A stretch of DNA of 64,000 bases from Limnobacter litoralis (lineage in GTDB: Bacteria > Pseudomonadota > Gammaproteobacteria > Burkholderiales > Burkholderiaceae_B), in NCBI RefSeq assembly GCF_030160455.1, contig NZ_BSOJ01000032.1, positions 124,001 to 188,000 on the forward strand. The letters run 5' to 3'. Of the stretch, positions 3,949 through 23,698 are shown piece after piece. Under the pieces are notes generated by a model that was not told the origin of the DNA, ran no database searches, and was given only the letters and a program-made list of their open reading frames with translations. The stretch's first letter is position 1. Every line of letters begins with the position of its first letter. A program made the position numbers and the translations under genes.

Positions 3949-4023
3949 TCAGCGGTTGGCGATGTACATGGTGATTTCGAAACCGAAACGCATGTCAACG
4001 AATGATGGTGTTGTCCACTGCAT
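3949..4023 (-). CDS. pqqA: PqqA, PQQ precursor peptide
   Basis: A 24-residue peptide, MQWTTPSFVDMRFGFEITMY followed by IANR. The Glu16-x3-Tyr20 pair is the pair that PqqE cross-links and that becomes the PQQ skeleton. It is preceded by a strong ribosome site, AGGAGGA, 6-8 bases before the ATG. It heads the pqq operon and has a sigma54 promoter about 110 bases upstream. Confidence 0.97.
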   Translation of the reverse strand: MQWTTPSFVDMRFGFEITMYIANR

Positions 4024-4134: not shown

Positions 4135-4149
4135 GCAATTCCTGTGCCA
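4135..4149 (-). promoter_or_regulatory. Sigma54 promoter of pqqA
   Basis: On the minus strand this reads TGGCACAGGAATTGC, a perfect TGGCAC-N5-TTGC -24/-12 element. Transcription would start near 4123, leaving a leader of about 100 bases before pqqA. The same core occurs upstream of the porin and pedF. Confidence 0.88.
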
Positions 4150-4207
4150 CATCCGGAATACGTAAAATGCGTCAAACTGAATGCCTGATTTTGTATTGTG
4201 AACCGAC

Positions 4208-4224
4208 TGTACCAATTTGCAACA
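4208..4224 (-). promoter_or_regulatory. Palindromic upstream activator site, pqqA
   Basis: TGTACCAATTTGCAACA matches the palindrome TGTNNCAWWWTGNNACA that also lies upstream of pedF and aorA. It sits 58 bases upstream of the -24 element, within the range used by sigma54 activators. Binding by the AcoR-type protein is inferred. Confidence 0.6.
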
Positions 4225-4235
4225 AGTTTCACTGT

Positions 4236-4267
4236 AAAAAAGCGCATGCCTTTTGAGCATGCGCTTT
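4236..4267 (-). terminator. Rho-independent terminator of the porin gene
   Basis: A perfect 11-bp stem (arms 4239-4249 and 4257-4267, core AAAGCGCATGC) with a 7-base loop, followed on the minus strand by a T-run (A on plus at 4236-4241). It lies about 30 bases after the porin stop and separates the porin from pqqA. Confidence 0.9.
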
Positions 4268-4295
4268 CGATGATCACCGCGGAGGGTTGTGGCGA

Positions 4296-5498
4296 TCAGA
4301 AGAACAGGATGGCACCCAGTGCAAAGGTGTTGGCCTTGCCTTCAGGTCCAGCTGCACCCAGTTGATAGGTTTGCTTCTGGGTGGTGTACTCGGCTGCCAG
4401 TGTCAGGCTTGGAGTCAGGTTGTGGTAAACACCCGCTGTGATGTTGGTGTTTTCGCGGAGCATGATTGTGTTGGCCGCAGTGTCCGCTGCCGTGGCATCC
4501 AGCTTGGACTTGCCGTAGTTGATACCGAACTTGGTGTTGTTCAGCTTGTAGGTGGCCTGCAGCAGGTAGCCATTTGAATCGCGCTTGCCGCCGTTGGCAT
4601 CCGCACCACCAAAACCGATCAGGGTCGTGCCCAGGCCTTTGCCGGTGAAGTAGTTGCCGGTCAGACCCAGGTTGCCGATGTTGTAGTTTCCACCGAGTTC
4701 ACCACCGCTGAGATCAGCCTGATTGGTGGTTGTGTCGCGGGACTGGTTGATCAGCGTTGCCCAAACCTTGCCGTCTTTACCCAGTGCGTAGGTGGCCATG
4801 CCCTGGAAGCCGGTCTTGTTGTGGGAGCTGGTGGCACTTGTTGTTGTTGCACTAAGTGCCACTGGCTGGAACACGCCGCCACTGAGGCTGAGACCACCAA
4901 GGTCTGGCGATGTGTAGGTAATTTGTGGCTGGAATTGCGTGTAAACGTAACCGGAGCCAATGGAACCCAGTGTGGTGTTCAAGGCGCCGTTGTACGCAGC
5001 ACCGCCGCCAACCGCCAGCAATGACATGTCGTTCAGAATGGCGTTGGATCCGAACAGACCGATGTCACGACCCAACTTCAGGGTACCGATGTCTTTGTTG
5101 CCAAATGACAGGTAAACGCGGCGAGCGTCACCGACGGCCTGGCCTACACCGCCGTTCAGATTCGTGGACGCTGCGCTGGAGTTGGTTGTGCCTGGATCAA
5201 TCGAAATAACGCCCTTCAGGTCGTAGCCGTTTTGTGTTGTTGAGGCTGAAAACACAATAAAACCGGGCAGCAGGCCGTTCTGAATGTTGTTGGAAGACTG
5301 GCCAGTCTGTGAGTATCCGCACAGGCCAAGCGCACCAGACGCTGTTGCGCCTGCGTTGTCACATTTGGTGTTGGTGTAGTAGGCGTTCACTGAACCGGAG
5401 ATGTCCATGTTCCAGTCACCGGCCTTGAATCCGATGGCGTGAGCTGATGTCCCCATTGCTGCAAGTACTGATGCCGCTAGAATCTTTTTGCTGATCAT
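4296..5498 (-). CDS. Outer-membrane general porin
   Basis: A 400-residue porin of the betaproteobacterial type (Porin_4 family). The first 21 residues, MISKKILAASVLAAMGTSAHA, form a signal peptide cut after AHA. The mature part is rich in alternating beta strands and ends in ILFF, the terminal Phe needed for BAM-dependent assembly. Its own sigma54 promoter and terminator mark it as a single-gene unit. Placement between pqq and the PQQ-associated genes suggests it admits alcohol substrates; that is inference. Confidence 0.92.
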   Translation of the reverse strand: MISKKILAASVLAAMGTSAHAIGFKAGDWNMDISGSVNAYYTNTKCDNAGATASGALGLCGYSQTGQSSNNIQNGLLPGFIVFSASTTQNGYDLKGVISIDPGTTNSSAASTNLNGGVGQAVGDARRVYLSFGNKDIGTLKLGRDIGLFGSNAILNDMSLLAVGGGAAYNGALNTTLGSIGSGYVYTQFQPQITYTSPDLGGLSLSGGVFQPVALSATTTSATSSHNKTGFQGMATYALGKDGKVWATLINQSRDTTTNQADLSGGELGGNYNIGNLGLTGNYFTGKGLGTTLIGFGGADANGGKRDSNGYLLQATYKLNNTKFGINYGKSKLDATAADTAANTIMLRENTNITAGVYHNLTPSLTLAAEYTTQKQTYQLGAAGPEGKANTFALGAILFF

Positions 5499-5594
5499 AA
5501 GATCAACCCTCCATTTTTGTTTTAAAAGTTATTGCTTGTGGTTTACTTCGGTCTCGTCAGAGGAACACTGATTTCCTGACTTGAGAGGGCAAGG

Positions 5595-5609
5595 GCAAAT
5601 CCTGTGCCA
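5595..5609 (-). promoter_or_regulatory. Sigma54 promoter of the porin
   Basis: On the minus strand TGGCACAGGATTTGC, a perfect -24/-12 element. Predicted start near 5583, 85 bases before the porin ATG. The core differs from the pqqA promoter by one base. Upstream (5697-5713) there is only a half-matching copy of the 17-bp palindrome (left arm CAG instead of TGT), and several TGTGACA words lie at 5706-5756. Confidence 0.85.
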
Positions 5610-5696
5610 TGACTTAAATTATTGATTTAAAATGATTTTTACAAAAATTATAAAAATTGAATGGCAAGCTGTTTCATGGAGCGACTGTTGCCGTGA

Positions 5697-5713
5697 CAGC
5701 CCAATTTGTGACA
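5697..5713. promoter_or_regulatory. Degenerate activator half-site upstream of the porin
   Basis: CAGCCCAATTTGTGACA keeps the central CAATTTG and the right arm ACA of the palindrome found upstream of pqqA, pedF and aorA but has lost the left TGT. It lies 88 bases upstream of the -24 element. Confidence 0.35.
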
Positions 5714-5801
5714 GTTTTGTCGCCATGTGGAGCAGAAGTGTGACAGTGATGTGACAACAGGAATGCAGGCGTAGTGCAGGTGTTGCTTCAGGGGGCACAA
5801 C

Positions 5802-5829
5802 AAAAAAGCCACCGCGATTGCGGTGGCTT
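5802..5829 (-). terminator. Terminator of the sigma54 activator gene
   Basis: A 10-bp stem, AAGCCACCGC at 5806-5815 with its complement at 5820-5829 and a 4-base loop, followed on the minus strand by a T-run. It lies 22 bases after the activator stop. Confidence 0.9.
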
Positions 5830-5850
5830 ACAAGGGGCGAGCCTGCAGGG

Positions 5851-8307
5851 TCAGGCCTGCTGCTTTTCTTTGAGTCTTCGGTAGATGGTGTTGCGTGAAA
5901 TACCCAGCAGGCGTGCAGCCGCACTCACGTTGCCATGGCACTTTTCGAGCGCGTCCTGAATTGCTCGGGTCTCAATGTCATCCAGATTGCCGAGATCCAT
6001 CACGCTGCTGACCTGCATCGCCTTTGCGCCGAGGTAACCCTGTGATCGGGCCTCCATGGCTTTCTGGTCGTAGGGGGACGATTCGCCTCCAAACCGGTTG
6101 TTGAAGCGTTCCTCCCGGAATCGGGAGAAAGTTTGGTCGAGGTCTGACCGAGAGGAGGTGCCCGCAGGCTGCGCATTGAAAAACGGCTCTTCTGCGGCAT
6201 GCTGCTTGACTGGCTCTGCATTGGCGCCTTGAAAGTGGCGCGTGGTCTGAAACTGAAAACGCTGCACGGGTTGGGCCGTTTGCTTTTGAGGAGCCGGGTG
6301 GCCAGACAGGCAGGGTTTGACGCTGAACACCGGACGTCTGATTTGCGGGGTATGGCCGGTTGATGCTGAATGGCGTGCTGGCTCAGCATGCCCACTTAGA
6401 TGAGGCTCATGCAATGCGTCATCTTGCGGATGTTCAATCGGTGATTCCATTGCAGCGTTGGGCTTGGACCGCTTGCTGCGCAAGCTGATCCACTCGTCGT
6501 GGAAGTCGTCTGGCAGATGTTCCCACTCAATGGTGGGGTTGCCGTCAGCCATGACCACAGCAGTGCGCAGAATGTTGGTCAGTTGACGAATGTTGCCGGG
6601 CCAGGAATGTGCCACAAATGCGTTGGTCACATCCGGGGCGAGATCCATGGGCATGTGGGGGGATTCGTTTTCGAGAATGCGGGCGATGATCCGCTTGATG
6701 TCCTTGCGGTCTCGAAGAGCGGGCAACTTGACTGCCAGGCCATGCAGCCGGTAGTAAAGGTCTTCGCGGAACTGGCCGGCGTCGATCAAGTCTCGCAAAT
6801 TGCGGTGGGTGGCGCAAATCACAATCAAATTGACCGGAATGGATTTCTGGCTGCCCAGTGGTGTGACCACCCGTTCTTGAAGAACGCGCAGCAGGCGGGC
6901 CTGCAACGATATGGGCATGTCGCCAATTTCGTCCAGAAACAGGGTGCCGCCATTGGCTTGAAGAATTTTGCCCTGCGATCCTTTCTTTTTGGCACCCGTA
7001 AAGGCGCCGTCTTCATAGCCAAACAGCTCAGATTCAATCAGCGTTTCTGGAATGGATGCGCAGTTTACCGCCACAAATGGCTTGTCGCGCCGAGGCGAGT
7101 CGTTGTGGATGGCCTGAGCCAGAATTTCCTTGCCGGTGCCAGTTTCACCCAGAATCAGGATCGGAATGTCTTTGCCGATCACTTTGCCCAGTTTGTCGAT
7201 GACCTTGGCCACGGTGGGGTCGCCGGTGTTCAGGTATTTCAGACTGGACAGATAACGGTTTTTGTAAAGCGCTTGTTGGGACTGTTCGCTGGATGTGCGG
7301 CCTGCAATGCCCCCAACCATGTTTCCGTTCAGTATGTCATTGGATTTGGCCAGCCCGGCAGAACCAAAGAACTGACTGCGGCCCACGCTGCCCAAACTGG
7401 CGCGCGCAGTGACGTGGTTTCCATTGTGCAAACACAGAATCAGTGGCTCGGGGTTGCAGGTGCGGTAGTGGTCGATCAGCGCCGAAATCGGCATGCCAAA
7501 CAGCGAGCTGAAAGTGTGGGCACGCAAGGCATTGACCGACATGCCAAACTGAACCATGGCTGCACGGTTGGCCGCCAGAAACTTGCCAGAGGGCGAGAAT
7601 GCGGCTGCCCCTTCGACCACTGAGCCCAAAAATTCGCCTCGCTGGTGAAATTGGACAATGATCGAGTCTTGGAATGACGAATTGAACAAATGGTTTTCGA
7701 TCATCTGGGCCGACATGCGGACCAAACCCATGGTGTGGCGGTGGTAGCTGCGATAATCGCCCGTGACATCAAGCACGCCCAAGGGAACGCCAGTGGGGTC
7801 GAATATCGGTGCAGCCGAGCACGTCAAAAATCGATTGACGTCCAGAAAGTGATCCTGGCCATGAACCACGGTCGGCAGTTCTTCAATCAAGGCCGTGCCG
7901 ATGGCATTGGTGCCTTTGCTTTCTTCGCTCCAGGTCATGCCCTTGGCCAGGGCCACCTTTTGTGCCTTTTCCAAGAAGTCGTCGTCACCCAACGATTCAA
8001 TGATGGTGCCGCTGGCGTCGGTCAGTAGCACCATGCTGTGCGTGCTGACCACCTGCTCGTAAAGTGTTTCCATGAAGGGCAGGGCGCAGCTTCTCAGCTG
8101 ATTGTTTTTTGCGACCAGCTCTTGCAAGACGTCTCGGGCTGCGGGTTCAAAGTTGACTTTGCTGGAGCTTTCCAGCCCGGACTCTGCGCATCGCTTGTGG
8201 GCTCTGCGTATGAATTCGAGGTGCCCTTCGGTGTTGGGATCGATCAGCTCGATCACCTTGGAATTGGGCGTACTTACGGCGTTACCTTGGTCAGGTAGGA
8301 AGGACAT
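5851..8307 (-). CDS. Sigma54-dependent activator, AcoR type (GAF-AAA-HTH)
   Basis: An 818-residue enhancer-binding protein. An N-terminal GAF-like sensor (about 60-330) is followed by an AAA+ domain (about 355-590) with Walker A GETGTGKE, the sigma54-contact loop GAFTGA and Walker B GGTLFLDEIGD. A Fis-type HTH closes the protein (NVSAAARLLGISRNTIYRRL). Between AAA+ and HTH lies an unusual linker of about 165 residues, rich in His, Pro, Gln and Ser. I chose ATG 8305-8307 (MSFLPDQG) because GGAGA precedes it by 6 bases; a frame 15 residues longer exists. It is divergent from pedF. The four sigma54 promoters nearby are its likely targets. AcoR-family members answer to small alcohols or ketones such as acetoin; the ligand here is unknown. 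Confidence 0.93.
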   Translation of the reverse strand: MSFLPDQGNAVSTPNSKVIELIDPNTEGHLEFIRRAHKRCAESGLESSSKVNFEPAARDVLQELVAKNNQLRSCALPFMETLYEQVVSTHSMVLLTDASGTIIESLGDDDFLEKAQKVALAKGMTWSEESKGTNAIGTALIEELPTVVHGQDHFLDVNRFLTCSAAPIFDPTGVPLGVLDVTGDYRSYHRHTMGLVRMSAQMIENHLFNSSFQDSIIVQFHQRGEFLGSVVEGAAAFSPSGKFLAANRAAMVQFGMSVNALRAHTFSSLFGMPISALIDHYRTCNPEPLILCLHNGNHVTARASLGSVGRSQFFGSAGLAKSNDILNGNMVGGIAGRTSSEQSQQALYKNRYLSSLKYLNTGDPTVAKVIDKLGKVIGKDIPILILGETGTGKEILAQAIHNDSPRRDKPFVAVNCASIPETLIESELFGYEDGAFTGAKKKGSQGKILQANGGTLFLDEIGDMPISLQARLLRVLQERVVTPLGSQKSIPVNLIVICATHRNLRDLIDAGQFREDLYYRLHGLAVKLPALRDRKDIKRIIARILENESPHMPMDLAPDVTNAFVAHSWPGNIRQLTNILRTAVVMADGNPTIEWEHLPDDFHDEWISLRSKRSKPNAAMESPIEHPQDDALHEPHLSGHAEPARHSASTGHTPQIRRPVFSVKPCLSGHPAPQKQTAQPVQRFQFQTTRHFQGANAEPVKQHAAEEPFFNAQPAGTSSRSDLDQTFSRFREERFNNRFGGESSPYDQKAMEARSQGYLGAKAMQVSSVMDLGNLDDIETRAIQDALEKCHGNVSAAARLLGISRNTIYRRLKEKQQA

Positions 8308-8414
8308 CCGTGTCTCCTCTTGTTGCTTGTGTTTGTATGGTTGTCTTTGCAACCTGCATCTAATTTTTGACAGCCTGCCCCACTATGCAAAAGCTGTGCC
8401 ATCGGGTAACGGGT

Positions 8415-8431
8415 TGTACCAAAATGGGACA
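8415..8431 (+). promoter_or_regulatory. Palindromic upstream activator site, pedF
   Basis: TGTACCAAAATGGGACA, the best copy of the shared 17-bp palindrome: the arms TGTACC and GGGACA pair at five of six positions. It lies 113 bases upstream of the -24 element of pedF and 108 bases upstream of the activator gene's start, so it could serve activation of pedF and control of the activator. Confidence 0.6.
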
Positions 8432-8543
8432 CTGTGACAATCAAATTAGCACAATGACATTCTCTTTTCCAGTCCTTATCCAATCGCAATTGACTGTTTT
8501 CTGGTGGATTTGCAGCTGGCTTTGGCGCAGACGGGGCTGCCGT

Positions 8544-8558
8544 TGGCACGGGGATTGC
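8544..8558 (+). promoter_or_regulatory. Sigma54 promoter of pedF
   Basis: TGGCACGGGGATTGC, a perfect TGGCAC-N5-TTGC element. Predicted start near 8570, about 36 bases before the pedF ATG. It drives the cytochrome, binding-protein and propeller genes, and faces away from the activator gene. Confidence 0.88.
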
Positions 8559-8605
8559 GTTGTGAACAATTACAAAATTTTTATTCTCAAACACAGGAGT
8601 TGTGG

Positions 8606-9064
8606 ATGTTAGTTCGTAAATTGGCCCTCTTTTCCCTTTTGCTCACAGTGACCGGCCTGGTCTATTCACACGGTGATGTCACTCCCCAAGCCGTTGATGT
8701 CTCCACCTTGCCCAAGCTGGGCGACACCATGCTCGACAAGAACCCCTTCGAAGGCAACAAGGAGGCAATTCGGATTGGCGCTTCAGCCTACAATCAGAAC
8801 TGTGCGCGTTGCCATGGCCTGGAAGTGATTAGCGGCGGTATTGCACCTGACCTGCGCAAGCTCAACATGGATTGTGAAGGACTGGCCAACCCGAAGAAAA
8901 AGGCGCAATGCATCGGGGACATGGACGTGTACTTCAGAAATTCCGTGTTGGGCGGCAAGGTGGTGGACGGACGTGTTTACATGCCCTCGTTTGCAGCTGT
9001 GTTCAGTCAAGAAGCCATTTGGGCGATCCGTTCCTACATTGAAACTCGCAAGTACGACGAGTAA
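8606..9064 (+). CDS. pedF: PedF-type cytochrome c550
   Basis: A 152-residue periplasmic cytochrome c. The signal peptide covers about 21 residues (MLVRKLALFSLLLTVTGLVY). The heme motif is CARCH, with a later Met in VYMPSF as likely sixth ligand. Two further cysteines (MDCEGL and AQCIGD) give the four-Cys pattern of the PedF family, which takes electrons from PQQ alcohol dehydrogenases. The ATG at 8606 follows AGGAG by 8 bases; a longer frame upstream would run through the promoter and is rejected. Confidence 0.93.
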   Translation: MLVRKLALFSLLLTVTGLVYSHGDVTPQAVDVSTLPKLGDTMLDKNPFEGNKEAIRIGASAYNQNCARCHGLEVISGGIAPDLRKLNMDCEGLANPKKKAQCIGDMDVYFRNSVLGGKVVDGRVYMPSFAAVFSQEAIWAIRSYIETRKYDE

Positions 9065-9116
9065 GTAGAACGCATGGCACGTGTAGATCCATAAAAAAGA
9101 CCGGAGACCTGGAGCA

Positions 9117-9971
9117 ATGAAGTCAGAAGCAATCAAGTGGATTCAGAAGTTGGGAATGGGTGTGTTGTTGGGTGGGGCCCTTTGCGTGGCCGCCCAAGCC
9201 CAGGAACTGCATGGATGGGAAAAGGTCAAGCACGACGGTGTGCTCAAAGTGGCCTTGTACAACGACCTCGTGCCCTTCTCAGACAAGGGCCAGGGCATTG
9301 ACGCCGACATTGCAACCGCGCTGGCGGACAAGCTGGGCTTGAAGGTAAAGTTCCTGCCATTTCCCGCCGACGAAACCATGAGCGATGATTTGCGCAACAT
9401 GGTCTGGAAGGGGCATTACATGGGATACGGCCCGGGTGATGTCATGATGCACGTGCCCATTGACCCCTTGCTGATGAAGCAGGAAGACAAGGTGCTGTTT
9501 TTTGCCCCCTACGTACATGAAGACATTTATGTCGTTCGCAATAAAAAGGACATACCGGCCCTGGACGACTTTTCACCCTTTGCTGAACACAAAGTGGGCG
9601 CCGAAATGAATTCGATTGGCGGACTTGTGTTGGCGGGGGCGGATCACGGCAAGTACGTTGAAAACCTGCACAATTACAAGACGGCCCGCATGGCCATGGA
9701 AGGTTTGTTGAAAGGCGAAGTGTCCGCCGTGATGGCCACCAAGCCCGAAATTGAATCGGCTTTGTTCAAGCAGCCCAATGCTGGAGACTTTGTGATTTCG
9801 AAGCTCAGCTTCCCGGCACTTCCGCCGAAGGGTTGGGTGTCTGGTTTGGCGGTAAAGGCCACCAACCAGCAATTGGCGATTGAGCTCAGAAAGGCCATGG
9901 ATGAACTTCAACAGAGTGGTGAACTCCAAAAAATATTCGCCAACTATGGAGTGACCTATGACCATCCGTAA
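9117..9971 (+). CDS. Quinoprotein dehydrogenase-associated periplasmic binding protein (MoxJ-like)
   Basis: A 284-residue protein of the type-3 solute-binding fold with signal peptide MKSEAIKWIQKLGMGVLLGG...AQA. It matches the MoxJ/MxaJ-like family found beside PQQ dehydrogenases. In that family the protein is thought to help assembly of the dehydrogenase rather than import a solute. It ends 14 bases inside the next gene, so the two are coupled. Ribosome site GGAG precedes the ATG. Confidence 0.88.
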   Translation: MKSEAIKWIQKLGMGVLLGGALCVAAQAQELHGWEKVKHDGVLKVALYNDLVPFSDKGQGIDADIATALADKLGLKVKFLPFPADETMSDDLRNMVWKGHYMGYGPGDVMMHVPIDPLLMKQEDKVLFFAPYVHEDIYVVRNKKDIPALDDFSPFAEHKVGAEMNSIGGLVLAGADHGKYVENLHNYKTARMAMEGLLKGEVSAVMATKPEIESALFKQPNAGDFVISKLSFPALPPKGWVSGLAVKATNQQLAIELRKAMDELQQSGELQKIFANYGVTYDHP

Positions 9972-10905
9972 AACGACACTTGCCCTGTTTGTTGCACAAC
10001 TCGCCCTGATTGGATCTGCAAACGCCTTTGAGGCGTATGCGTCCAACGAAGGTTCAAGCTCGATCAGTGTCATCGATGGCAAAACCATGTCAGTGGCCGG
10101 CACCATTGCGGTGGAAGGCAAGCCCCGTGGCATCGTGATTTCGAACGACGGAAAAACCGTGTATGTGTCAGAGCAGACCAAAGGTCGATTGCTGGTAATT
10201 GACACTGCCAAACACAAGATCACCAAGGAAATTCCCTTGGGTGAATCTCCCGAGGGTTTGGGTATCAACAAGGATGGCAGCCTGATTGCGGCTGCTGTGG
10301 AGCGCTTGAACAGCGTTTTGGTGGTGAACACGCACACGGGCAAAGTGGTGGCCACCATCAAGACCGAAGGTGAGAACCCAGAACACGCAGAATTCTCTCC
10401 CGATGGCAAATGGATTTACGCCAGCGCTGAAGAAGACCATCGCGTGGACATACTGGATGTGAAAACCGGCAAAGAAGTGAAATCGGTTGAAGTGGGCAAA
10501 CGGCCCCGTGGTATCGGTTTCACGCCTGATGGCAAGCTGGCCTTCATCGGTTGTGAAATGGACAACTCGGTTTATGTGATCGACGTGGCCAGCATGGAAG
10601 TGGTGAAGCGCATACCGGCTGGTCTTCGGGCCAATGGCATTGTGGTCAGCCCCGATGGCAAGTATGTGTACGTCAGCAATGGCGGTGACGCCAACGTGAT
10701 GCAGATCGACGTGGCCAAACTGGCCGTGGTCAACACCTTCCCGGTGGGCAAGCGCCCGTGGAACATGTCGATTGCCGACAATGGCAAATACCTGTTGGTG
10801 GCTTCTGGGCGGTCTGACGAAGTGTCGGTGGTTGATCTGGAGAAGGGCAAGGCCTTGCCGCCCGTGCCTGTTGGGCAGCGGCCCTGGGGTGTGGTGGCGC
10901 ATTGA
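9958..10905 (+). CDS. PQQ-associated YVTN beta-propeller protein
   Basis: A 315-residue secreted beta-propeller. Signal peptide MTIRKTTLALFVAQLALIGSANA. Repeats of about 42 residues follow the pattern GxRPRGI-x-PDGK-xYVSN-x-VxVID, for example KPRGIVISNDGKTVYVSE and RANGIVVSPDGKYVYVSN. This type is tied to PQQ-dependent catabolism clusters; its biochemical job is unknown. It is the third gene of the pedF operon. Confidence 0.9.
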   Translation: MTIRKTTLALFVAQLALIGSANAFEAYASNEGSSSISVIDGKTMSVAGTIAVEGKPRGIVISNDGKTVYVSEQTKGRLLVIDTAKHKITKEIPLGESPEGLGINKDGSLIAAAVERLNSVLVVNTHTGKVVATIKTEGENPEHAEFSPDGKWIYASAEEDHRVDILDVKTGKEVKSVEVGKRPRGIGFTPDGKLAFIGCEMDNSVYVIDVASMEVVKRIPAGLRANGIVVSPDGKYVYVSNGGDANVMQIDVAKLAVVNTFPVGKRPWNMSIADNGKYLLVASGRSDEVSVVDLEKGKALPPVPVGQRPWGVVAH

Positions 10906-10992
10906 TCGGCTTGGGTTGAGTTGCTTAGTCGGCTATTACAGGCGTGCATGTCACTTGCGCTTGGCTTGCCCGAAAAAACGCTGATCAGAACC

Positions 10993-11065
10993 CTGGCTTT
11001 GGAAGCCCGAGCGACAACTCGTGGCTTTGCAAGCCACTCAAACATGTCGCAGGTCGGGCCTATTC
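10993..11065 (+). repeat. Structured repeat A, copy 1
   Basis: A left flank (10993-11021) and right flank (11042-11059) match copy 2 in inverted orientation at 28 of 29 and 18 of 18 positions. Between the flanks is a perfect hairpin, GTGGCTT-TGC-AAGCCAC (11021-11037). The flanks themselves can pair: GCCCGAGCGACA with TGTCGC-agg-TCGGGC. The element therefore folds as an outer stem enclosing an inner hairpin. Confidence 0.8.
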
Positions 11066-11169
11066 CAAAGCTGCAGGCCCTGACCAGCCGGGCAACCCTG
11101 AATCGCGCTGCGTGACACACCCACCCGCAAAGCCTGACATTGCGGAACCTCGACGAAGCGATCCAGACC

Positions 11170-11217
11170 GACCTGCTGACCTGCTGACCTGCTGACCTGC
11201 TGACCTGCTGACTTGCT
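11170..11217 (+). repeat. Tandem 8-bp repeat GACCTGCT x6
   Basis: Five perfect copies of GACCTGCT (11170-11209) and one variant GACTTGCT (11210-11217). It lies within the repeat-rich spacer. Such octamer arrays are prone to slippage. Confidence 0.95.
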
Positions 11218-11269
11218 CAGCTTTACCCTCGCTACACTGTTCACTAACTTTGACCGAAGCCTCGGTCTG

Positions 11270-11317
11270 CCCCAAGCGCACTGCCCGGTCTGTCGAAGCC
11301 CGATTCAAGAATTGCCC
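11270..11317 (-). repeat. Repeat B, diverged inverted copy
   Basis: The reverse complement resembles the core of the two direct copies at 11411-11471 and 11488-11548: GGGCAATTC, then GGGC, GACAGACtGGGC and GGTGCGCTTGG with scattered differences. It is less well conserved than the direct pair. Confidence 0.6.
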
Positions 11318-11341
11318 CACTTGTGTTGACTCGCAGCCTTG

Positions 11342-11416
11342 GAATATGCCCGACCTGCGACATGTCTGAGCCCCGGCTTTACCGGGGCGAGTTGTCGCTC
11401 GGGCTTCCAAGGCCAG
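11342..11416 (-). repeat. Structured repeat A, copy 2 (inverted)
   Basis: Inverted partner of 10993-11065. The flanks are almost identical, but the inner hairpin is a different sequence, CCCCGG-CTTTA-CCGGGG (11371-11386). Sequence changed while pairing was kept, which points to selection on structure. Confidence 0.8.
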
Positions 11417-11471
11417 AGGCAATTACAAGTTGAATGGGCAATTCAAGGGCGAGACAGACTGGGCGGTGCGC
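11411..11471 (+). repeat. Repeat B, direct copy 1
   Basis: 61 bases beginning GGCCAGAGGCAATTA and ending GGGCGGTGCGC. It matches copy 2 at 56 of 61 positions, with a 77-base period, and abuts structured repeat A copy 2. Confidence 0.9.
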
Positions 11472-11487
11472 TTGGAACAAGCACCCA

Positions 11488-11548
11488 GGCCAGAGGCAAT
11501 TAAAAGTTCTATGGACAATTCAAGGGCAAGACAGACTGGGCGGTGCGC
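11488..11548 (+). repeat. Repeat B, direct copy 2
   Basis: Second 61-base direct copy. A short third fragment, AGGGCAAGACAG-c-CTGGGC, follows at 11554-11572. Confidence 0.9.
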
Positions 11549-11602
11549 GGAGGAGGGCAAGACAGCCTGGGCTGGAGGCAACGATGTTCGCCTTGCAACA
11601 CC

Positions 11603-11619
11603 TGTGTCATTTTGGAACA
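11603..11619 (+). promoter_or_regulatory. Palindromic upstream activator site, aor operon
   Basis: TGTGTCATTTTGGAACA fits TGTNNCAWWWTGNNACA and lies 79 bases upstream of the aor -24 element. It links the aldehyde oxidoreductase operon to the control pattern of pqqA and pedF. Confidence 0.55.
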
Positions 11620-11698
11620 GTTGCGTCACACCATCCATGTCGAAAACCGGAAGTTATGCAAACAGTTGCCGAATGGAGCAGTTGATGGGTCTTTTAGT

Positions 11699-11713
11699 TG
11701 GCAGGGTTATTGC
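11699..11713 (+). promoter_or_regulatory. Probable sigma54 promoter of the aor operon
   Basis: TGGCAGGGTTATTGC keeps the invariant GG and GC with correct spacing and deviates from TGGCAC at one base. Predicted start near 11725, about 53 bases before aorA. Confidence 0.72.
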
Positions 11714-11777
11714 ATAGAGCCTCTTGAAGCAGTTTGAACAAGAAAAACTGACAACTTAAAAAGGATGAGGTATCGGG

Positions 11778-12251
11778 ATGCAAAAATCTCTTCAAATCAA
11801 TCCAGACAAGTGCACGGGCTGCCTGCAATGCGAAATGGCATGTAGCTACGAGAACTATCAGGTGTTCAACACCTCGTTGTCGCGGATCAAGGTTTTCGAT
11901 TTTCACCACACGGGCAAGAAAGTGCCCTACACCTGCACGCAGTGTGACGAGGCTTGGTGTCTGCACGCCTGTCCGGTTGAGGCGATCACCATGGACAAGC
12001 TCAGTGGTGTGAAGGTGGTGTCGGAAGACACTTGTGTGGGTTGCAAGGTTTGTACGATTGCCTGCCCCTTTGGCACGGTCAACTACGTGCAGGAAACCGG
12101 CAAGGTTCAGAAGTGTGACCTGTGCGGCGGTGAGCCCGCCTGTGCCGAGGCCTGCCCAACCGGCGCGATTACTTTTGTAGACGCCAACTGGACAGGTTTG
12201 GACAAGATGAAGCAGTGGGCTGAAAAGCTGAGTAACCAGACACACGCCTGA
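11778..12251 (+). CDS. aorA: AorA, polyferredoxin subunit of aldehyde oxidoreductase
   Basis: A 157-residue ferredoxin-like electron-transfer protein. Sixteen cysteines form four [4Fe-4S] sets: CTGCLQCEMAC, CTQCDEAWCLHACP, CVGCKVCTIACP and CDLCGGEPACAEACP. It has no signal peptide, so it is cytoplasmic. In the Aromatoleum-type enzyme such a subunit carries electrons between the tungsten subunit and the FAD subunit. First gene of the operon; aorB follows after 28 bases. AGGATGAGG precedes the ATG. Confidence 0.92.
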   Translation: MQKSLQINPDKCTGCLQCEMACSYENYQVFNTSLSRIKVFDFHHTGKKVPYTCTQCDEAWCLHACPVEAITMDKLSGVKVVSEDTCVGCKVCTIACPFGTVNYVQETGKVQKCDLCGGEPACAEACPTGAITFVDANWTGLDKMKQWAEKLSNQTHA

Positions 12252-12279: not shown

Positions 12280-14127
12280 ATGGCATGGACCGGAAAATTG
12301 CTGCGGGTCAACCTGACGGAAGGCACCTGCAAAAGTGAAGATTTGAAGATGGAATGGGCCCGGAATTATTTGGGTCAACGTGGCCTGGCCACCAAGTATT
12401 TTGTGGAAGAAGTGGACGCGAAGGTGGACCCACTGTCGCCTGAAAACAAGTTGATGTTTGCCACAGGGCCCTTGACTGGCACCATGGCCTCCACCGGTGG
12501 CCGTTATTCTGTGATCACCAAGGGCCCATTGACGGGTGCAATTGCCTGTTCAAATTCGGGTGGTTACTGGGGTGCAGAATTGAAAATGGCCGGTTGGGAC
12601 ATGGTCATTCTGGAGGGCAAGTCGCCCAAGCCTGTGTACCTGTACATTGAAAATGATGTGCCCAAGCTGTTGGATGCATCAGATCTGTGGGGCAAGAGTG
12701 TTTGGGAAACCGAGCCTGCGCTGAAGACCCGTCATCAAGACCCTTTGATCCGTGTGACATCGATTGGTCGCGCCGGTGAAAACCAGGTGCTTTACGCAGC
12801 CATCGTGAACGATTTGCACCGGGCTGCAGGACGTTCTGGCGTGGGTGCCGTCATGGGCTCCAAAAACCTGAAGGCGATTGCCGTGCGTGGCACCAAGGGT
12901 GTGGGCAATATCCACAATCCCAAAGAGTTCATGAAGGTTACCTTTGAGAAGAAGAAAATTCTGGCCGAAAACGCAGTGACAGGACAGGGCTTGCCAACCT
13001 ATGGCACCCAGGTGTTGATGAACGTGATCAACGAGATGGGTGCAATGCCCACCAACAACCACCGCGAGGTGCAGTTTGATGGCGCGAAGGACATTTCTGG
13101 CGAAAAGATGCACGAGAAGCGTCCGACCGATGGCAAAGCCAATTTGGTGACCAATCAGGCGTGCTTTGGATGCACCATCGCGTGTGGCCGCATTTCAAAG
13201 ATCGACGAAACGCACTTCACCGTGGAAAACAAACCCCAATACTGGGGTGCGTCTGGCGGACTTGAATATGAAGCCGCATGGGCGTTGGGATCTTCCAATG
13301 GCGTCAGTGACCTTGAGGCGCTGACCTATGTCAACTTCCTGTGCAATGAACACGGCATCGACCCAATCTCCTTCGGGGCTACGGTGTCTGCAGTCATGGA
13401 GTTGTACGAAATGGGTGTGTTGACCGAGCAGCAAATCGGTGTGAAGGCACCCTTCGGTTCTGCCGAGGCATTGACCAAACTGGCTGAATGGACGTGCAAT
13501 GGCGAAGGTTTTGGCAAAGACGTTGGCTTGGGTTCCAAGCGATTGACGGCCAAATATGGTCATCCAGAGCTGTCCATGAGCGTGAAGGGCCAGGAATTTC
13601 CGGCTTACGATTCACGCGGCATTCAGGGCATGGGTTTGGCGTATGCCACCTCCAACCGGGGCGCCTGCCACCTGCGCGGCTACACGGTGGCCTCCGAGGT
13701 GCTGGGTATTCCCGTGAAGACAGATCCTTTGACCACCGATGGCAAGCCCGAGTTGGTGAAGGCCTTCCAGGACGCCACTGCGGTGTTTGACTCTGCCGGT
13801 ATTTGTGTGTTCACCAGTTTTGCCTGGACCTTGGCGGATGTACAGCCACAGGTTGCAGCCGCTTGTGGTGACGAGTTCGACATGGACAACCTGGGTGTGA
13901 TTGGCGAGCGGATCTGGAACCTGGAGCGTCAGTTCAACCTCAATGCCGGCTTCACGAAAGCCGACGATGACTTGCCTGCGCGTCTGAAAAAAGACGCAGC
14001 CAAGGTAGGACCCGCCAAGGGCTTGGTCAGTGGTGTTGAAAAGATGCTGCCTGAGTATTATGAGTTGCGCGGCTGGGATGCTGAAGGCCGACCACGCAAG
14101 GAAACCCTGGAGAAATTGGGCCTATGA
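12280..14127 (+). CDS. aorB: AorB, tungsten-type aldehyde:ferredoxin oxidoreductase
   Basis: A 615-residue member of the AOR family, oxidising aldehydes to carboxylic acids at a bis-pyranopterin tungsten (possibly molybdenum) centre. The [4Fe-4S] ligands are ACFGCTIACG (Cys near 295, 298, 302) and a distal Cys in DSAGIC (near 509). The N-terminal pterin-binding part shows TGPLTGTMASTGGRY and the later SNRGACHLRGY. Length fits the family (about 605-620). The start ATG is preceded by GGGAGAAGCAAC. Its stop overlaps aorC by ATGA. Tungsten rather than molybdenum is inferred from the family and from the tup genes at 34 kb. Confidence 0.95.
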   Translation: MAWTGKLLRVNLTEGTCKSEDLKMEWARNYLGQRGLATKYFVEEVDAKVDPLSPENKLMFATGPLTGTMASTGGRYSVITKGPLTGAIACSNSGGYWGAELKMAGWDMVILEGKSPKPVYLYIENDVPKLLDASDLWGKSVWETEPALKTRHQDPLIRVTSIGRAGENQVLYAAIVNDLHRAAGRSGVGAVMGSKNLKAIAVRGTKGVGNIHNPKEFMKVTFEKKKILAENAVTGQGLPTYGTQVLMNVINEMGAMPTNNHREVQFDGAKDISGEKMHEKRPTDGKANLVTNQACFGCTIACGRISKIDETHFTVENKPQYWGASGGLEYEAAWALGSSNGVSDLEALTYVNFLCNEHGIDPISFGATVSAVMELYEMGVLTEQQIGVKAPFGSAEALTKLAEWTCNGEGFGKDVGLGSKRLTAKYGHPELSMSVKGQEFPAYDSRGIQGMGLAYATSNRGACHLRGYTVASEVLGIPVKTDPLTTDGKPELVKAFQDATAVFDSAGICVFTSFAWTLADVQPQVAAACGDEFDMDNLGVIGERIWNLERQFNLNAGFTKADDDLPARLKKDAAKVGPAKGLVSGVEKMLPEYYELRGWDAEGRPRKETLEKLGL

Positions 14128-15473
14128 CAACGCGGCACGTTATTTTAGGTAACGGGCCGGCGGGTGTGGTCGCTGCGGAGCAAATCAGAAAGCAGCGACC
14201 CCACGATTCAATCGTGATGGTGGGGGCCGAACCTGAGCCCCCGTATTCCCGCATGGCCATTCCTTACCTGTTGATCGGCAAGGTGGGTGAAAAAGGCACC
14301 TATCTGCGCAAAGACCCCGACCATTTCAAGCGACAGAATATTCTGGAAGTGCAGGCCAGGGCCACCCGTCTTGACACCAAAGGCAAGGTGGTTCACCTGG
14401 ACAATGGGCAGCAGTTGCCTTACGACAAGTTGTTGATTGCAACGGGTGCTCGGCCCATTTCGCCACCCATCCCAGGTGTGAATTTGCCGGGCGTGTACCC
14501 CTGCTGGACGCTTGAAAACGCGCGTCAAATCATCGAGTTGGCCAAGCCAGGTTCGCGCGTTCTGCAAATGGGTGCGGGTTTTATCGGCTGCATCATTATG
14601 GAAGCATTGGCCTTGCGGGGCGTGAAGCTGACGGTGGTCGAAATGGGCAACCGCATGGTGCCCCGCATGATGACGGAAGGCGCGGGCAGCATGATTCGCG
14701 ACTGGTGCATTGCCAAGGGTGTGAACGTGCATTGTTCCACCAAGGTTGAAGCCATTGAGCAGGGCGGCAAGCCCGCTGGTTTGATGGGCAAAATCGGTGC
14801 GGCACTGGGCATGGGTGGTGGGCAATCTTCCGGTGCCCCTTTGCTGGCCAAGCTCAGCAATGGTGAAACGCTGGAGTGTGATTTGATCATTTCAGCCACG
14901 GGTGTGAAGCCGAATCTGGATTTTCTGGAAGGTTCAGGCCTGGAAGTGGATCAGGGCTTGCTGGTCGACGATCACATGCAGACCAATGTGCCCGATGTGT
15001 TTGCCGCGGGTGATGTGGCGCAAGTGCGCGACTTTTCCACTGGCCAGAAAACGGTCAACATGATTCAACCGGCTGCCGCAGATGACGCGCGCATTGCCGC
15101 TCAGAACATGATGGGCCTGGGGACCGAGACTCAAGGCAGCCTGGCCATGAACGTGCTGGACACGCTTGGCTTGATTGCGGCGTCTTTTGGTCAATGGTGG
15201 GGTTCTGACACGGGCCAGAGCGTTGAGCTGGTTCGCAAGGAATCGTTCAATTACTTGCGACTCGAATTTGAAGGAGATGTGCTGATCGGTGCGACAAGCT
15301 TGGGCCTGACCGACCACGTGGGCGTATTGCGTGGCCTGATTCAGGGCAAAATCAGGCTGGGCGAGTGGAAAGACATTCTGCTCGAAGACCCAACCCGATT
15401 AATGGAAGCCTATCTGGCTTGCGCACAGTCACAAAGCACATGGAAATTACCTTCAAACTCTTTGCAACACTGA
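14124..15473 (+). CDS. aorC: AorC, FAD/NAD-binding subunit of aldehyde oxidoreductase
   Basis: A 449-residue pyridine nucleotide-disulfide oxidoreductase-type flavoprotein. FAD Rossmann motif GNGPAG (about residues 8-13), a second dinucleotide fold VLQMGAGFIG (about 149-158) and the FAD closing motif VFAAGDVAQ. It would pass electrons between the ferredoxin subunit and NAD+, as in the Aromatoleum aromaticum AorABC complex. It lacks the redox-active CxxxxC of disulfide reductases. The aorD start lies inside its last 34 bases. Confidence 0.9.
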   Translation: MTTRHVILGNGPAGVVAAEQIRKQRPHDSIVMVGAEPEPPYSRMAIPYLLIGKVGEKGTYLRKDPDHFKRQNILEVQARATRLDTKGKVVHLDNGQQLPYDKLLIATGARPISPPIPGVNLPGVYPCWTLENARQIIELAKPGSRVLQMGAGFIGCIIMEALALRGVKLTVVEMGNRMVPRMMTEGAGSMIRDWCIAKGVNVHCSTKVEAIEQGGKPAGLMGKIGAALGMGGGQSSGAPLLAKLSNGETLECDLIISATGVKPNLDFLEGSGLEVDQGLLVDDHMQTNVPDVFAAGDVAQVRDFSTGQKTVNMIQPAAADDARIAAQNMMGLGTETQGSLAMNVLDTLGLIAASFGQWWGSDTGQSVELVRKESFNYLRLEFEGDVLIGATSLGLTDHVGVLRGLIQGKIRLGEWKDILLEDPTRLMEAYLACAQSQSTWKLPSNSLQH

Positions 15474-15691
15474 CTGACTATCTGCCGCCGAATCGCAAAG
15501 ACAACGCGGTTCGGCTGACAGTCAATGAGGGCAGCAGCGTTCAATCTGTCATCGAACAGTTCAATCTGCCAGAAAAGCTGACGCACCTGGTACTGGTCAA
15601 TGGGGTCTACGTGGGCCCTGCGGATCGGGCAGGGCGGGTGTTGGTGGCTGATGATGTGCTGGCCATTTGGCCGCCAATCGCTGGAGGTTGA
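15440..15691 (+). CDS. aorD: AorD, MoaD/ThiS-like sulfur carrier
   Basis: An 83-residue ubiquitin-fold sulfur carrier ending in PPIAGG; the terminal Gly-Gly is the thiocarboxylate site used to put dithiolene sulfur into molybdopterin. I chose ATG 15440 (MEITFKLFATLTDY); a frame 25 residues longer would lie wholly in aorC. A dedicated MoaD copy is typical of tungsten AOR operons. Confidence 0.9.
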   Translation: MEITFKLFATLTDYLPPNRKDNAVRLTVNEGSSVQSVIEQFNLPEKLTHLVLVNGVYVGPADRAGRVLVADDVLAIWPPIAGG

Positions 15692-21797: not shown

Positions 21798-21839
21798 GCT
21801 GGAACACGGATTGCTTTGACAGCCAGATGAACACGGAAT

Positions 21840-21861
21840 ACAGGCGTCAGCGGACGCCTGT
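21840..21861 (+). terminator. Hairpin after the TonB receptor gene
   Basis: A perfect 9-bp stem ACAGGCGTC (21840-21848) with its complement at 21853-21861 and loop AGCG, 43 bases after the receptor stop. Only a short T-rich tract follows, so termination may be partial and the next genes could be read through. Confidence 0.5.
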
Positions 21862-21899
21862 TGTGTCAATTTGAAACACGCCGTACCCGGAGCCTGACG

Positions 21900-22562
21900 T
21901 TGAACCCACACAAGTACACCATTTTTCTGTATTGGTTGTTGATTGCCAGCGCCACGGCGCTTGCCGCCGCCATCGTGTGGGATCAAGGTTTGTTGTTGAA
22001 GATCTTCATTCTGGACAACACGCGCATTTGCGCATTCATCGCTTTCTGTTTTGTTGGGGGCACCCTGCTGGCGGGCTGGCGCAGTCTGTATCTGTCTCGG
22101 CAGGCTGAGTATCTGGACGAGATTCAACGCAACCCTCGCCGAGTGCAATTCGAGCCTGGCCAGTCCATCTGCTGGGACTACCTCAGTCACCATGACCCCA
22201 TGGCCAAGGCCAGTGAAGGCCAGTTGCTGGCCGAGGTGATGGCTGAAGAGGCCCGCGGCAATCATCAGATCGGCTGGTTTTTGGCAGGCCTCATGATCAA
22301 GCTGGGCTTGCTGGGCACGGTGGTTGGGTTTGTGATGATGTTGGCCACTCTGCAAGGCATTTCTACGCTGGATGTGAAAGACATCCAAGGGGTTATGGCT
22401 CAAACCACCGGCGGCATGGGGGTGGCCATGTACACCACACTGGTGGGCTTGGTGGGCAGCATTTTGCTGGGCCTGCAATACATTTTGCTGGATCGCTTTG
22501 CCGATGGACTGGTGGCCCGCGCCGTGCGGTTTGCACATGTGTTCAATCAGGCAAAAGGCTGA
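21900..22562 (+). CDS. MotA/TolQ/ExbB-like proton channel protein
   Basis: About 220 residues. Membrane segments near the N-terminus (YTIFLYWLLIASATALAAAIVW), one at about 38-58, and two C-terminal ones (GLLGTVVGFVMMLATLQGI and TTLVGLVGSILLGLQYILL) with the GLLGTVxG and TTLVGLVG signatures of MotA/TolQ/ExbB proteins. I propose TTG 21900 because GGAG lies 7 bases upstream; an in-frame TTG at 21861 is also possible but sits in the hairpin. First gene of a four-gene operon. Not long enough or placed with che/flagellar genes, so a flagellar MotA is unlikely. Confidence 0.82.
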   Translation: MNPHKYTIFLYWLLIASATALAAAIVWDQGLLLKIFILDNTRICAFIAFCFVGGTLLAGWRSLYLSRQAEYLDEIQRNPRRVQFEPGQSICWDYLSHHDPMAKASEGQLLAEVMAEEARGNHQIGWFLAGLMIKLGLLGTVVGFVMMLATLQGISTLDVKDIQGVMAQTTGGMGVAMYTTLVGLVGSILLGLQYILLDRFADGLVARAVRFAHVFNQAKG

Positions 22563-22568
22563 AGCTGC

Positions 22569-23177
22569 ATGGCGCTTTTCAAGCACAACAGTGACCTGGA
22601 CATTGATCCATTCACTGACCTGATCTTCAACACGCTGTTGACCTTCACTTTTTTGTTTTTGATTTCGCTGTTTTTGCTGAACCCACCCGCCAAAAGCGGC
22701 ATCATCGACCCGAAAGCAGAATTGCTGATCACGGTCAGCTGGCCAGACAACAACCCGGATGACGTGGACGTCTGGGGGGCTGGGCCGGGCGACACACTGG
22801 TGTGGTACATGCACCCGCAAGATGGCTTGATGAACATTGACCGCGACGACAGGGGCATGGCCAATGACACGCAGCTCGTCAACGGGCAGGTCATCTCGAA
22901 CCCCCTGAACCAGGAGGTGCTGACTGTGCGTGGCAGAACCCCCGGCGAGTACATCGTCAACCTGAATTACTTCAAAAGCGAAGACCACAAGCCCGTGCCC
23001 GTGAAGGTGTACCTGGCTGACGTCAACCCCAAACTGCAAGTGCTGTATTACGGCGAATTTGTGCTGCAGCATGAAAAAGACGAGTTGACGGCCTTTCGGT
23101 TCACCATCGATGGCGATGGCAAGGTCGTTGACATCAATCAACTTCAAAAATCTCTCGTAAAGGCACAAGAAAAATGA
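22569..23177 (+). CDS. ExbD-like single-span membrane protein with large periplasmic domain
   Basis: A 202-residue protein. A charged N-terminus (DIDPFTDLIFNTLLTFTFLF) leads into one membrane helix at about 15-38; the Asp in PFTDLIFN is placed like the proton-carrying Asp of ExbD/TolR/MotB. A periplasmic domain of about 160 residues follows, containing SWPDNNPDDVDVWGAGPGD and NIDRDDRGMANDT, which resembles a DUF2135-type Asp-rich beta domain. It is longer than usual ExbD proteins and lacks the usual ExbD C-terminal fold. Stop overlaps the next start (ATGA). Confidence 0.72.
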   Translation: MALFKHNSDLDIDPFTDLIFNTLLTFTFLFLISLFLLNPPAKSGIIDPKAELLITVSWPDNNPDDVDVWGAGPGDTLVWYMHPQDGLMNIDRDDRGMANDTQLVNGQVISNPLNQEVLTVRGRTPGEYIVNLNYFKSEDHKPVPVKVYLADVNPKLQVLYYGEFVLQHEKDELTAFRFTIDGDGKVVDINQLQKSLVKAQEK

Positions 23178-23698
23178 CAGAGGTACTGATCGGCCTGACC
23201 CTGGCCTACGTGTTCGTGGTGTTACTTTTGCTGATTGTGCTGATACGCGGCAATTTGAAATGGATGATCAAGGCCCTGCTGGTGGTGCTGGCCATGGGCA
23301 TGAACTGGTACACCTATCAAACCTGGCAGGGGGTGCAGGGCTGGCCTTCGCCTGTGGCCATGCCCACCCATTTTTTGCTGCACTATGCGGTCATCGATGA
23401 GCCCAATCAGAAAAAGGGCACCAAAGGCCACCTGTACGTGTGGGCCAGTGAAATCAGCAAAGCCAAACCCAGCGAGCAACCCCGTGCTTATGAGCTGCCT
23501 TACAGCACTGACCTGCATGCCAAGCTGGAGTCGGCCATGCGAAAAATCGGCAATGGCCAGTTGCAGATGGGGCGTATCACGGGCGGAGAGACCAAAAACC
23601 GCCTGAATGTTCGCGATTACACGCGCATTGGCGACAAAAGCGCAGGGCTGGACCTGGAGTTCAGCAATCTGCCTGATCCACAACTGCCGGAGAAATGA
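23174..23698 (+). CDS. Hypothetical inner-membrane protein
   Basis: 174 residues. Two hydrophobic segments at about 5-25 and 32-48 are followed by a soluble, probably periplasmic, domain containing LYVWASEISKAKPSEQPRAY. No known family recognised. Translationally coupled to both neighbours (4-base overlaps), so it most likely belongs to the same complex as the MotA/ExbB-like and ExbD-like proteins. Confidence 0.75.
   Translation: MTEVLIGLTLAYVFVVLLLLIVLIRGNLKWMIKALLVVLAMGMNWYTYQTWQGVQGWPSPVAMPTHFLLHYAVIDEPNQKKGTKGHLYVWASEISKAKPSEQPRAYELPYSTDLHAKLESAMRKIGNGQLQMGRITGGETKNRLNVRDYTRIGDKSAGLDLEFSNLPDPQLPEK

Follow-up and report, generated by a model that had tools for sequence, protein, structure and literature searches.

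Does one regulator join the genes for pyrroloquinoline quinone (PQQ)-dependent alcohol oxidation to those of a tungsten aldehyde oxidoreductase (AOR) in Limnobacter litoralis? The question arises from a stretch of its genome (C32:124001-188000; "the window" here means all 64,000 nucleotides analyzed) in which pqqA, a porin gene, the cytochrome gene pedF, and aorA lie around the gene for an AAA+ transcriptional activator (5851-8307). An original prediction, made from the letters alone, had placed a sigma54 promoter upstream of each of these four genes and proposed that the activator switches them together. Reading the window sequence bore out all four sites, position and strand alike. We consider it likely that these sigma54 promoters form one regulon under this activator, joining PQQ alcohol oxidation to tungsten aldehyde oxidation; the regulon appears real and probably functional, with good support within the genus and less even support outside it. 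Conserved sites, a shared palindrome, synteny, and a relative that lacks the aorA site all argue for a single AAA+ activator acting on pqq, porin, pedF, and aorA. The four-promoter picture was nevertheless incomplete: it left out the palindromes and the promoters of the activator gene itself and of an ExbB-type operon, as well as three promoters outside the window.

The bare pattern TGGCA-N6-TTGC is only weakly above chance in the window, with seven matches against 2.95 expected, at least seven in 3 of 100 shuffles, and two of the seven intragenic. The evidence lies in where the sites stand and how they cluster. Across the 3.01-Mb genome, TGGCAC-N5-TTGC has 20 exact matches against 9 for a backwards control, and five of them, the ones taken up here, fall in one 12.8-kb stretch (C32:119803-132558), a clustering with a Poisson probability of about 3e-8 for a stretch picked post hoc. 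On a 16-position sigma54 score, with weights set by the analyst, the five top-scoring sites on both strands of the window were the four predicted ones and a fifth, 5' of the activator gene. The sites have the -24/-12 form (TGGCAC-N5-TTGC, with GG and GC at fixed spacing), the aorA site (TGGCAG) and the ExbB site (TGGAAC) each being one position off consensus; as befits sigma54 promoters, they stand 5' of genes and are kept in relatives. The genome also carries rpoN (463 bits). An "extended core" said to be common to the pqqA, porin, and pedF sites did not survive comparison: most relatives have TGGCATGTCTTTTGCC at porin and TGGCATGGGGATTGCA at pedF, and we rejected the core as a feature of the regulon.

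We searched 15 genomes of the genus and found an ortholog of the activator in 12; those without one were G006, G002 (85% complete), and G010 (65% complete). The conservation counts given here cover activator-bearing genomes of the genus and include the window in each. The gene order pqq - porin - activator / pedF - solute-binding protein (SBP) - aor is kept in all 12, as far as the fetched contigs extend. The upstream comparison suggested with the original prediction was carried out, and the sites were in place wherever a comparison could be made: pqqA 11/11 (and also in G008, scored separately), porin 12/12, and 13/13 each for the activator gene, pedF, and aorA. The same scoring applied 5' of the SBP gene, inside its operon, found sigma54 sites in 0 of 15. 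Within the 15-bp aorA site, 12 positions are invariant across 13 sequences, compared with 43 of 285 in the surroundings; the corresponding figures are 11/15 for pedF, 10/15 for pqqA, and 9/15 for porin. By that measure the least canonical of the four sites is therefore the best conserved.

A natural control, consisting of one genome, is offered by G006 (99% complete). It keeps aorABC at 83 to 92% identity, whereas searches of it turned up neither an activator ortholog nor PqqC, and nothing exceeded the cut-off for a PQQ alcohol dehydrogenase. Within 1 kb 5' of its aorA there is no sigma54-like site, the best score being 12.5 against at least 14.7 elsewhere in the genus. Since the G006 genome does encode five strong sigma54 activators, the absence of the site tracks this particular activator and its partners.

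Sigma54 promoters need an activator site. Among the alignments listed, a 17-bp palindrome, TGTTTCA-N3-TGAAACA, stands 5' of aorA, between the activator gene and pedF, and 5' of pqqA, and it is probably the binding site of the activator. Written as TGT-N11-ACA, it fits the class of TGT/ACA palindromes with 10- to 12-bp spacers that the available part of PMC6615313 (Nie et al. 2019) gives for many sigma54 activators. A loose form of the palindrome has nine sites in the 3.01-Mb genome (control, 1), and five of these lie within 24.7 kb at the window locus; the matches at C9:176105, C10:149, and C28:39213 were set aside as probable chance. The palindromes at a PQQ alcohol dehydrogenase gene, a quinoprotein relay operon, and the ExbB-type operon were independent of the motif definition and pointed to these as new members.

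The PQQ alcohol dehydrogenase gene (L001, on C32 to the left of the window) has its palindrome about 40 bp 5' of a sigma54 site that is kept in 12/12 genus genomes with upstream DNA fetched, as well as in G027. Adjoining it is a gene for the acetaldehyde dehydrogenase ExaC (939.9 bits, over cut-off), whose start is preceded by TGGCACGCAGGTTGC in the source genome; a sigma54 site was present in all 7 relatives whose ExaC start was covered, from 11 stretches fetched. The relay operon includes a SoxYZ-like carrier (TIGR04557) and a metallohydrolase (TIGR04558). In 11 of the 11 relatives fetched, it precedes the alcohol dehydrogenase gene and has a sigma54 site that is conserved. In the source genome it occupies a separate contig, C15, and still has an upstream activator site (UAS) and a sigma54-like site, CGGCACAAGTCTTGCT. 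For the ExbB operon, a similar promoter site was found in all five relatives fetched, which were chosen for having the palindrome.

A strict form of the palindrome gave 36 sites in the 14 genomes searched (control, 2). Thirty of these are at regulon promoters, counted as the gaps PqqB/porin, activator/pedF, and SBP/aorA together with the alcohol dehydrogenase, relay, and ExbB genes. Matches in G006 C7, G008 C86, G009 C1:2498219, G012 C1, and G015 C20 were taken as probable chance.

The activator has an N-terminal GAF domain, an AAA+ domain with GAFTGA, and a Fis-type helix-turn-helix (HTH), with no receiver domain, an architecture for an enhancer-binding protein that we take to be the one called "AcoR-type." That label holds for the architecture and fails as a statement of family membership. 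Compared with 25 of 28 named NCBIfam equivalog families, the protein exceeded no curated cut-off (DhaR, 287.7 against 551). Among solved structures (35 sequences), those of sigma54-type activators matched it over the AAA+ region. It is one of five strong sigma54 activators in the genome. The end of its recognition helix, near GNVS..A..LGISRNTIYR, is similar across the homologs compared in and beyond the genus. The linker between AAA+ and HTH is long (about residues 615 to 770), and the non-genus homologs compared are mostly shorter proteins. In G011 (L061:10578-13207), the activator gene matches in two pieces and the promoters are nonetheless kept.

Outside the genus, we found AOR in 35 of 399 genomes sampled from the order, the source genome included, and scored 32 non-genus AOR genomes for a sigma54-like site at aorA. 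Dropped from the scoring were G106 (its stretch lacks AorA), G064 and G389 (no stretch), a Piscinibacter metagenome-assembled genome (MAG; no PqqC search), and G006 (a member of the genus). An activator-like gene was called at 440 bits or more and an aorA site at a score of 13.9, a cut-off set after the 13.9 of G027 was known. The aorA site occurs in 5/13 genomes with PqqC and 0/19 without (p=0.006), or 4/13 versus 0/19 at a cut-off of 14.0 (p=0.02), and PqqC accompanies the activator-like gene (11/12 with it versus 2/20 without); with G082 and G125 belonging to one genus, not all of these counts are independent. G295 and the Piscinibacter MAG have in common the order activator / pedF - SBP - aorA, with SBP-aorA gaps of about 0.16 and 0.57 kb; neither has a sigma54 site at aorA itself, and in both pedF has a sigma54 site and, by eye, an imperfect palindrome. 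In G417 the activator gene and aorA are neighbors, and pedF is divergent, with TGGCACAGCGTTTGCA. A Variovorax plasmid carries the activator, pedF, pqq, and alcohol dehydrogenase genes with sigma54-like sites and has a full palindrome at pedF. AOR-activator linkage recurs in other families, and the aorA sigma54 site is present in a minority of the non-genus genomes.

Several observations weigh against a single regulon. The genus genomes are related and hence are not independent trials. The palindrome was derived from these very promoters, which makes its match to them partly circular, and the porin and ExaC promoters lack a full copy. No palindrome was found at the relatives' relay promoter within the short stretch covered, and most relatives have only degenerate ones at the alcohol dehydrogenase promoter, G014 being a clear exception. 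The strict form is at none of the regulon promoters in G015 and G027 and at one in G001. The palindrome of the ExbB operon follows the promoter instead of preceding it (31 to 62 bp downstream of the promoter's start, which is unusual), in relatives picked because they have it. Beyond the genus, the aorA site occurs in 4/12 genomes with an activator-like gene versus 1/20 without (one-sided p=0.05), a link that falls to 3/12 versus 1/20 at a score of 14.0 (p=0.14), with G027 sitting exactly on 13.9. Because of this cut-off sensitivity and the uneven palindromes, our confidence in the regulon was lowered by a small step and stays high, and that in the broader reading given further on moved from an even balance to just below it.

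The rival account that fares best, which we nevertheless regard as unlikely, is that the activator answers one PQQ-side signal and the operons are further gated, for example by tungstate through a ModE-like protein, such that they are rarely expressed together. A candidate gate exists: a gene for a protein with a ModE-like HTH and a PBP domain (L001:15953-17050), possibly a molybdate/tungstate-linked regulator, is divergent from the PQQ alcohol dehydrogenase gene here; 10 of the 11 stretches fetched from the genus have it next to the relay operon, kept at 58 to 67%. The shared sites speak instead for shared activation.

Alternatively, the PQQ-side promoters could be real and the aorA site a relict or chance match, with the enzyme expressed by read-through or from another promoter. 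The site's departure from consensus fits this account, as does the lack of such a site at most AOR genes in the order (27 of the 32 non-genus genomes scored); in addition, no terminator was found at 10850-11800 in the window, which leaves room for read-through from the pedF operon. Against it stand the 13/13 conservation of the aorA site, its invariant positions relative to the surroundings, and the palindrome upstream. In several relatives a GC-rich hairpin with a T-run can be made out by eye after the preceding gene and ahead of the UAS; a search of 10850-11800 gave no sigma70-like promoter; and G006, which is without the regulator, is also without the site. We judge this account decidedly improbable.

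A gene for a LuxR-type response regulator (17612-18235) lies with a HisKA_3 kinase gene near the aor operon (17612-19370), and the pair presumably resembles regulators of PQQ dehydrogenases elsewhere. That this or some other regulator takes the place of the adjacent activator has slightly the least chance of the three, even with the title of Singh et al. 2017 naming sigma54 and a LuxR-type regulator at an Azospirillum quinoprotein alcohol dehydrogenase, for it is the adjacent AAA+/Fis protein and not LuxR that is syntenic with the regulon, G006 with its five other sigma54 activators has neither an ortholog nor the aorA site, and the palindrome fits the TGT/ACA class of sigma54 activators in the accessible part of PMC6615313.

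Under the single-activator regulon, the activator would bind the palindrome near the promoters, most likely as a dimer, and would assemble once its GAF sensor has a ligand, which is probably an alcohol, an aldehyde, or some related metabolite. Its GAFTGA-bearing domain would then hydrolyze ATP, so that RNA polymerase-sigma54 is remodeled and opened at each promoter. PQQ synthesis, the porin, the PQQ alcohol dehydrogenase, cytochrome c-550 and the SBP, AorABC, ExaC, and the relay and ExbB-type operons would be switched on together. The activator would also control its own gene; its promoter is 13 bp from a palindrome, a gap that suggests limited or negative autoregulation, a sign that we infer. 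After entry through the porin, alcohol would be oxidized by the periplasmic PQQ enzyme, which would pass electrons to PedF; oxidation of the aldehyde would follow in the cytoplasm, by the tungsten enzyme AorABC and the NAD-dependent ExaC. The order of these steps and the inducer are those that knowledge of the protein families leads us to expect; binding, sigma54 dependence, and transcription starts are likewise inferred.

Features of the window (positions count from its first nucleotide; candidate activator sites carry a dot for strand).
Feature	Position	Strand	Basis or remark
pqqA, 24 aa, first gene of pqq operon	3949..4023	-	Translation
Predicted sigma54 promoter of pqqA, TGGCACAGGAATTGC	4135..4149	-	Form in relatives, [ACT]GGCAC..TTGC
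Palindromic candidate activator site (UAS) 5' of pqqA, TGTACCAATTTGCAACA	4208..4224	.	Footprint alignment
Porin (Porin_4)	4296..5498	-	Domain match
Predicted sigma54 promoter of porin, TGGCACAGGATTTGC	5595..5609	-	12/12 genus genomes
Degenerate candidate UAS 5' of porin, single good half TGTCACAAATTGGGCTG on minus	5697..5713	.	Weakest UAS assignment
Activator gene: GAF 78-206, AAA+ 363-526 with GAFTGA at 434, Fis-type HTH 775-814	5851..8307	-	
Predicted sigma54 promoter of activator gene, TGGCACAGCTTTTGC	8387..8401	-	13/13 genus genomes; missing from original prediction
Candidate UAS between activator gene and pedF, TGTACCAAAATGGGACA	8415..8431	.	Footprint and palindrome search
Predicted sigma54 promoter of pedF, TGGCACGGGGATTGC	8544..8558	+	13/13 genus genomes
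pedF, cytochrome c-550	8606..9064	+	TIGR04494, 192 bits versus cut-off of 122
Family-3 SBP gene, probably in pedF operon	9117..9971	+	
Beta-propeller protein gene	9958..10905	+	TIGR03866-like, under cut-off
Candidate UAS 5' of aorA, TGTGTCATTTTGGAACA	11603..11619	.	Footprint and palindrome search
Predicted sigma54 promoter of aorABC, TGGCAGGGTTATTGC	11699..11713	+	13/13 activator-bearing genus genomes
AorA, iron-sulfur subunit	11778..12251	+	Domain match
AorB, tungsten subunit (AFOR_N, AFOR_C)	12280..14127	+	Domain match
AorC, FAD-binding subunit (Pyr_redox_2)	14124..15473	+	Domain match
MoaD/ThiS-like protein, probable aorD	15437..15691	+	
Weaker sigma54-like site 5' of ExbB-type operon, TGGAACACGGATTGC	21800..21814	+	
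Candidate UAS downstream of ExbB-operon promoter, TGTGTCAATTTGAAACA	21862..21878	.	
ExbB/MotA-family gene and three next genes	21861..24417	+	Block kept in 4/4 relatives with open reading frames compared

PqqB, PqqC, and PqqE score above their NCBIfam cut-offs, and the aor genes have the make-up of a three-subunit tungsten AOR, with predicted AFOR_N/AFOR_C, Fe-S, and FAD subunits and a MoaD-like gene. The beta-propeller gene was not seen in the fetched loci of the genus relatives and is present in that of G027. Just 5' of aorA, positions 10993-11548 are dense in repeats, where most relatives have a short gap: inverted arms at 10993-11021 and 11388-11416 (97%), a 65-nucleotide direct repeat, and tandem copies of GACCTGCT at 11162-11225. 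This region may be the remnant of an insertion element.

Directly 5' of the ExbB-type operon is a gene for a TonB-dependent receptor (19482-21797) with a partial match to PqqU, far under cut-off; in the four relatives compared, an extra gene of unknown family lies between the two. Divergent from the relay operon, L175:1425-2408 encodes an apparently secreted protein (its N terminus judged by eye) that matches no NCBIfam or Pfam family at the cut-offs applied, and homologs of it (38 to 45%) precede the ExbB operon in five relatives. The source genome has a second PQQ dehydrogenase gene (G000 C7:4219-5748), in a stretch (L177) with two sigma54-like sites, and a more distant quinoprotein gene (C27:55373-57034).

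A bolder reading, which we put forward tentatively and at a little short of an even chance, is that one alcohol/aldehyde-sensing activator commands a whole envelope-spanning chain, with porin, PQQ, dehydrogenase, cytochrome, relay, and energization of the ExbB type outside and AOR and ExaC inside, and that Burkholderiales have tied AOR to it repeatedly, by a promoter of its own, by fusion behind pedF, or by adjacency. When members of this group oxidize alcohol aerobically with PQQ, AOR would then regularly carry out the second step. For most tungsten oxidoreductases no role has been assigned, only five of 92 clades containing an enzyme with a defined physiological one in the available part of PMC13328260, and the regulon would name one: the second step of alcohol oxidation. 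Being conserved, it also predicts inducers and supplies a motif for finding other members, and it places the quinoprotein relay genes and the uncharacterized ExbB-type operon under the same putative control, which makes their function testable.

The original prediction had presented a regulon that includes both pqq and the tungsten enzyme as undescribed. In the open-licence library searched, we found no report of PQQ genes and tungsten AOR together under sigma54; the claim nevertheless calls for a qualification, since each half is in print separately, the aor half as a prediction, and the regulon is a new one built of known parts and of a known type. In Burkholderiaceae, the bug-symbiosis region of PMC9088363 likewise has a PQQ cluster, a PQQ alcohol dehydrogenase, an SBP, and a "sigma-54-dependent Fis family regulator," a likeness between regulators by description only; the portion of that text available describes neither promoters nor a tungsten enzyme. 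The ped/exa cluster of Pseudomonas (PMC12997753, PMC13390443), to which pedF belongs by name, also consists of co-regulated PQQ alcohol dehydrogenases but is regulated by PedR1 (AgmR) and PedS2/PedR2 in the part of PMC13390443 at hand; in the accessible parts of the two texts, "AcoR" occurs in neither, and in PMC12997753 sigma54 is mentioned once, for cbrB, and "aldehyde oxidoreductase" does not occur.

By its title, the Azospirillum brasilense system of Singh et al. 2017 shares with ours a sigma54-dependent PQQ alcohol dehydrogenase and differs in having a LuxR-type partner rather than a GAF/AAA+/Fis activator; that title does not name a tungsten enzyme. AdhR of Clostridium beijerinckii, studied with mutants and electrophoretic mobility shift assays, is similarly a GAF-bearing sigma54 activator that acts through a UAS on alcohol dehydrogenase genes, but these are solvent-producing enzymes, and neither PQQ nor tungsten enters the available part of the account (PMC7017808). 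AorABC of Aromatoleum aromaticum is likewise a tungsten AOR of three subunits whose operon includes MoaD-like genes, in a text whose accessible portion is without the words "sigma," "transcription," and "upstream" (PMC6365974). A parallel in control is AorR of Clostridia, for which the available part of PMC6615313 predicts, as here, a sigma54 activator for aor with moaD acting through a TGT/ACA inverted-repeat UAS. AorR differs in being filed there under alcohol synthesis, with acetate reduced to acetaldehyde, and in having aor-moaD as its target, with no PQQ genes; comparing AorR and the Limnobacter activator by description only, the predicted target set of the latter is the wider.

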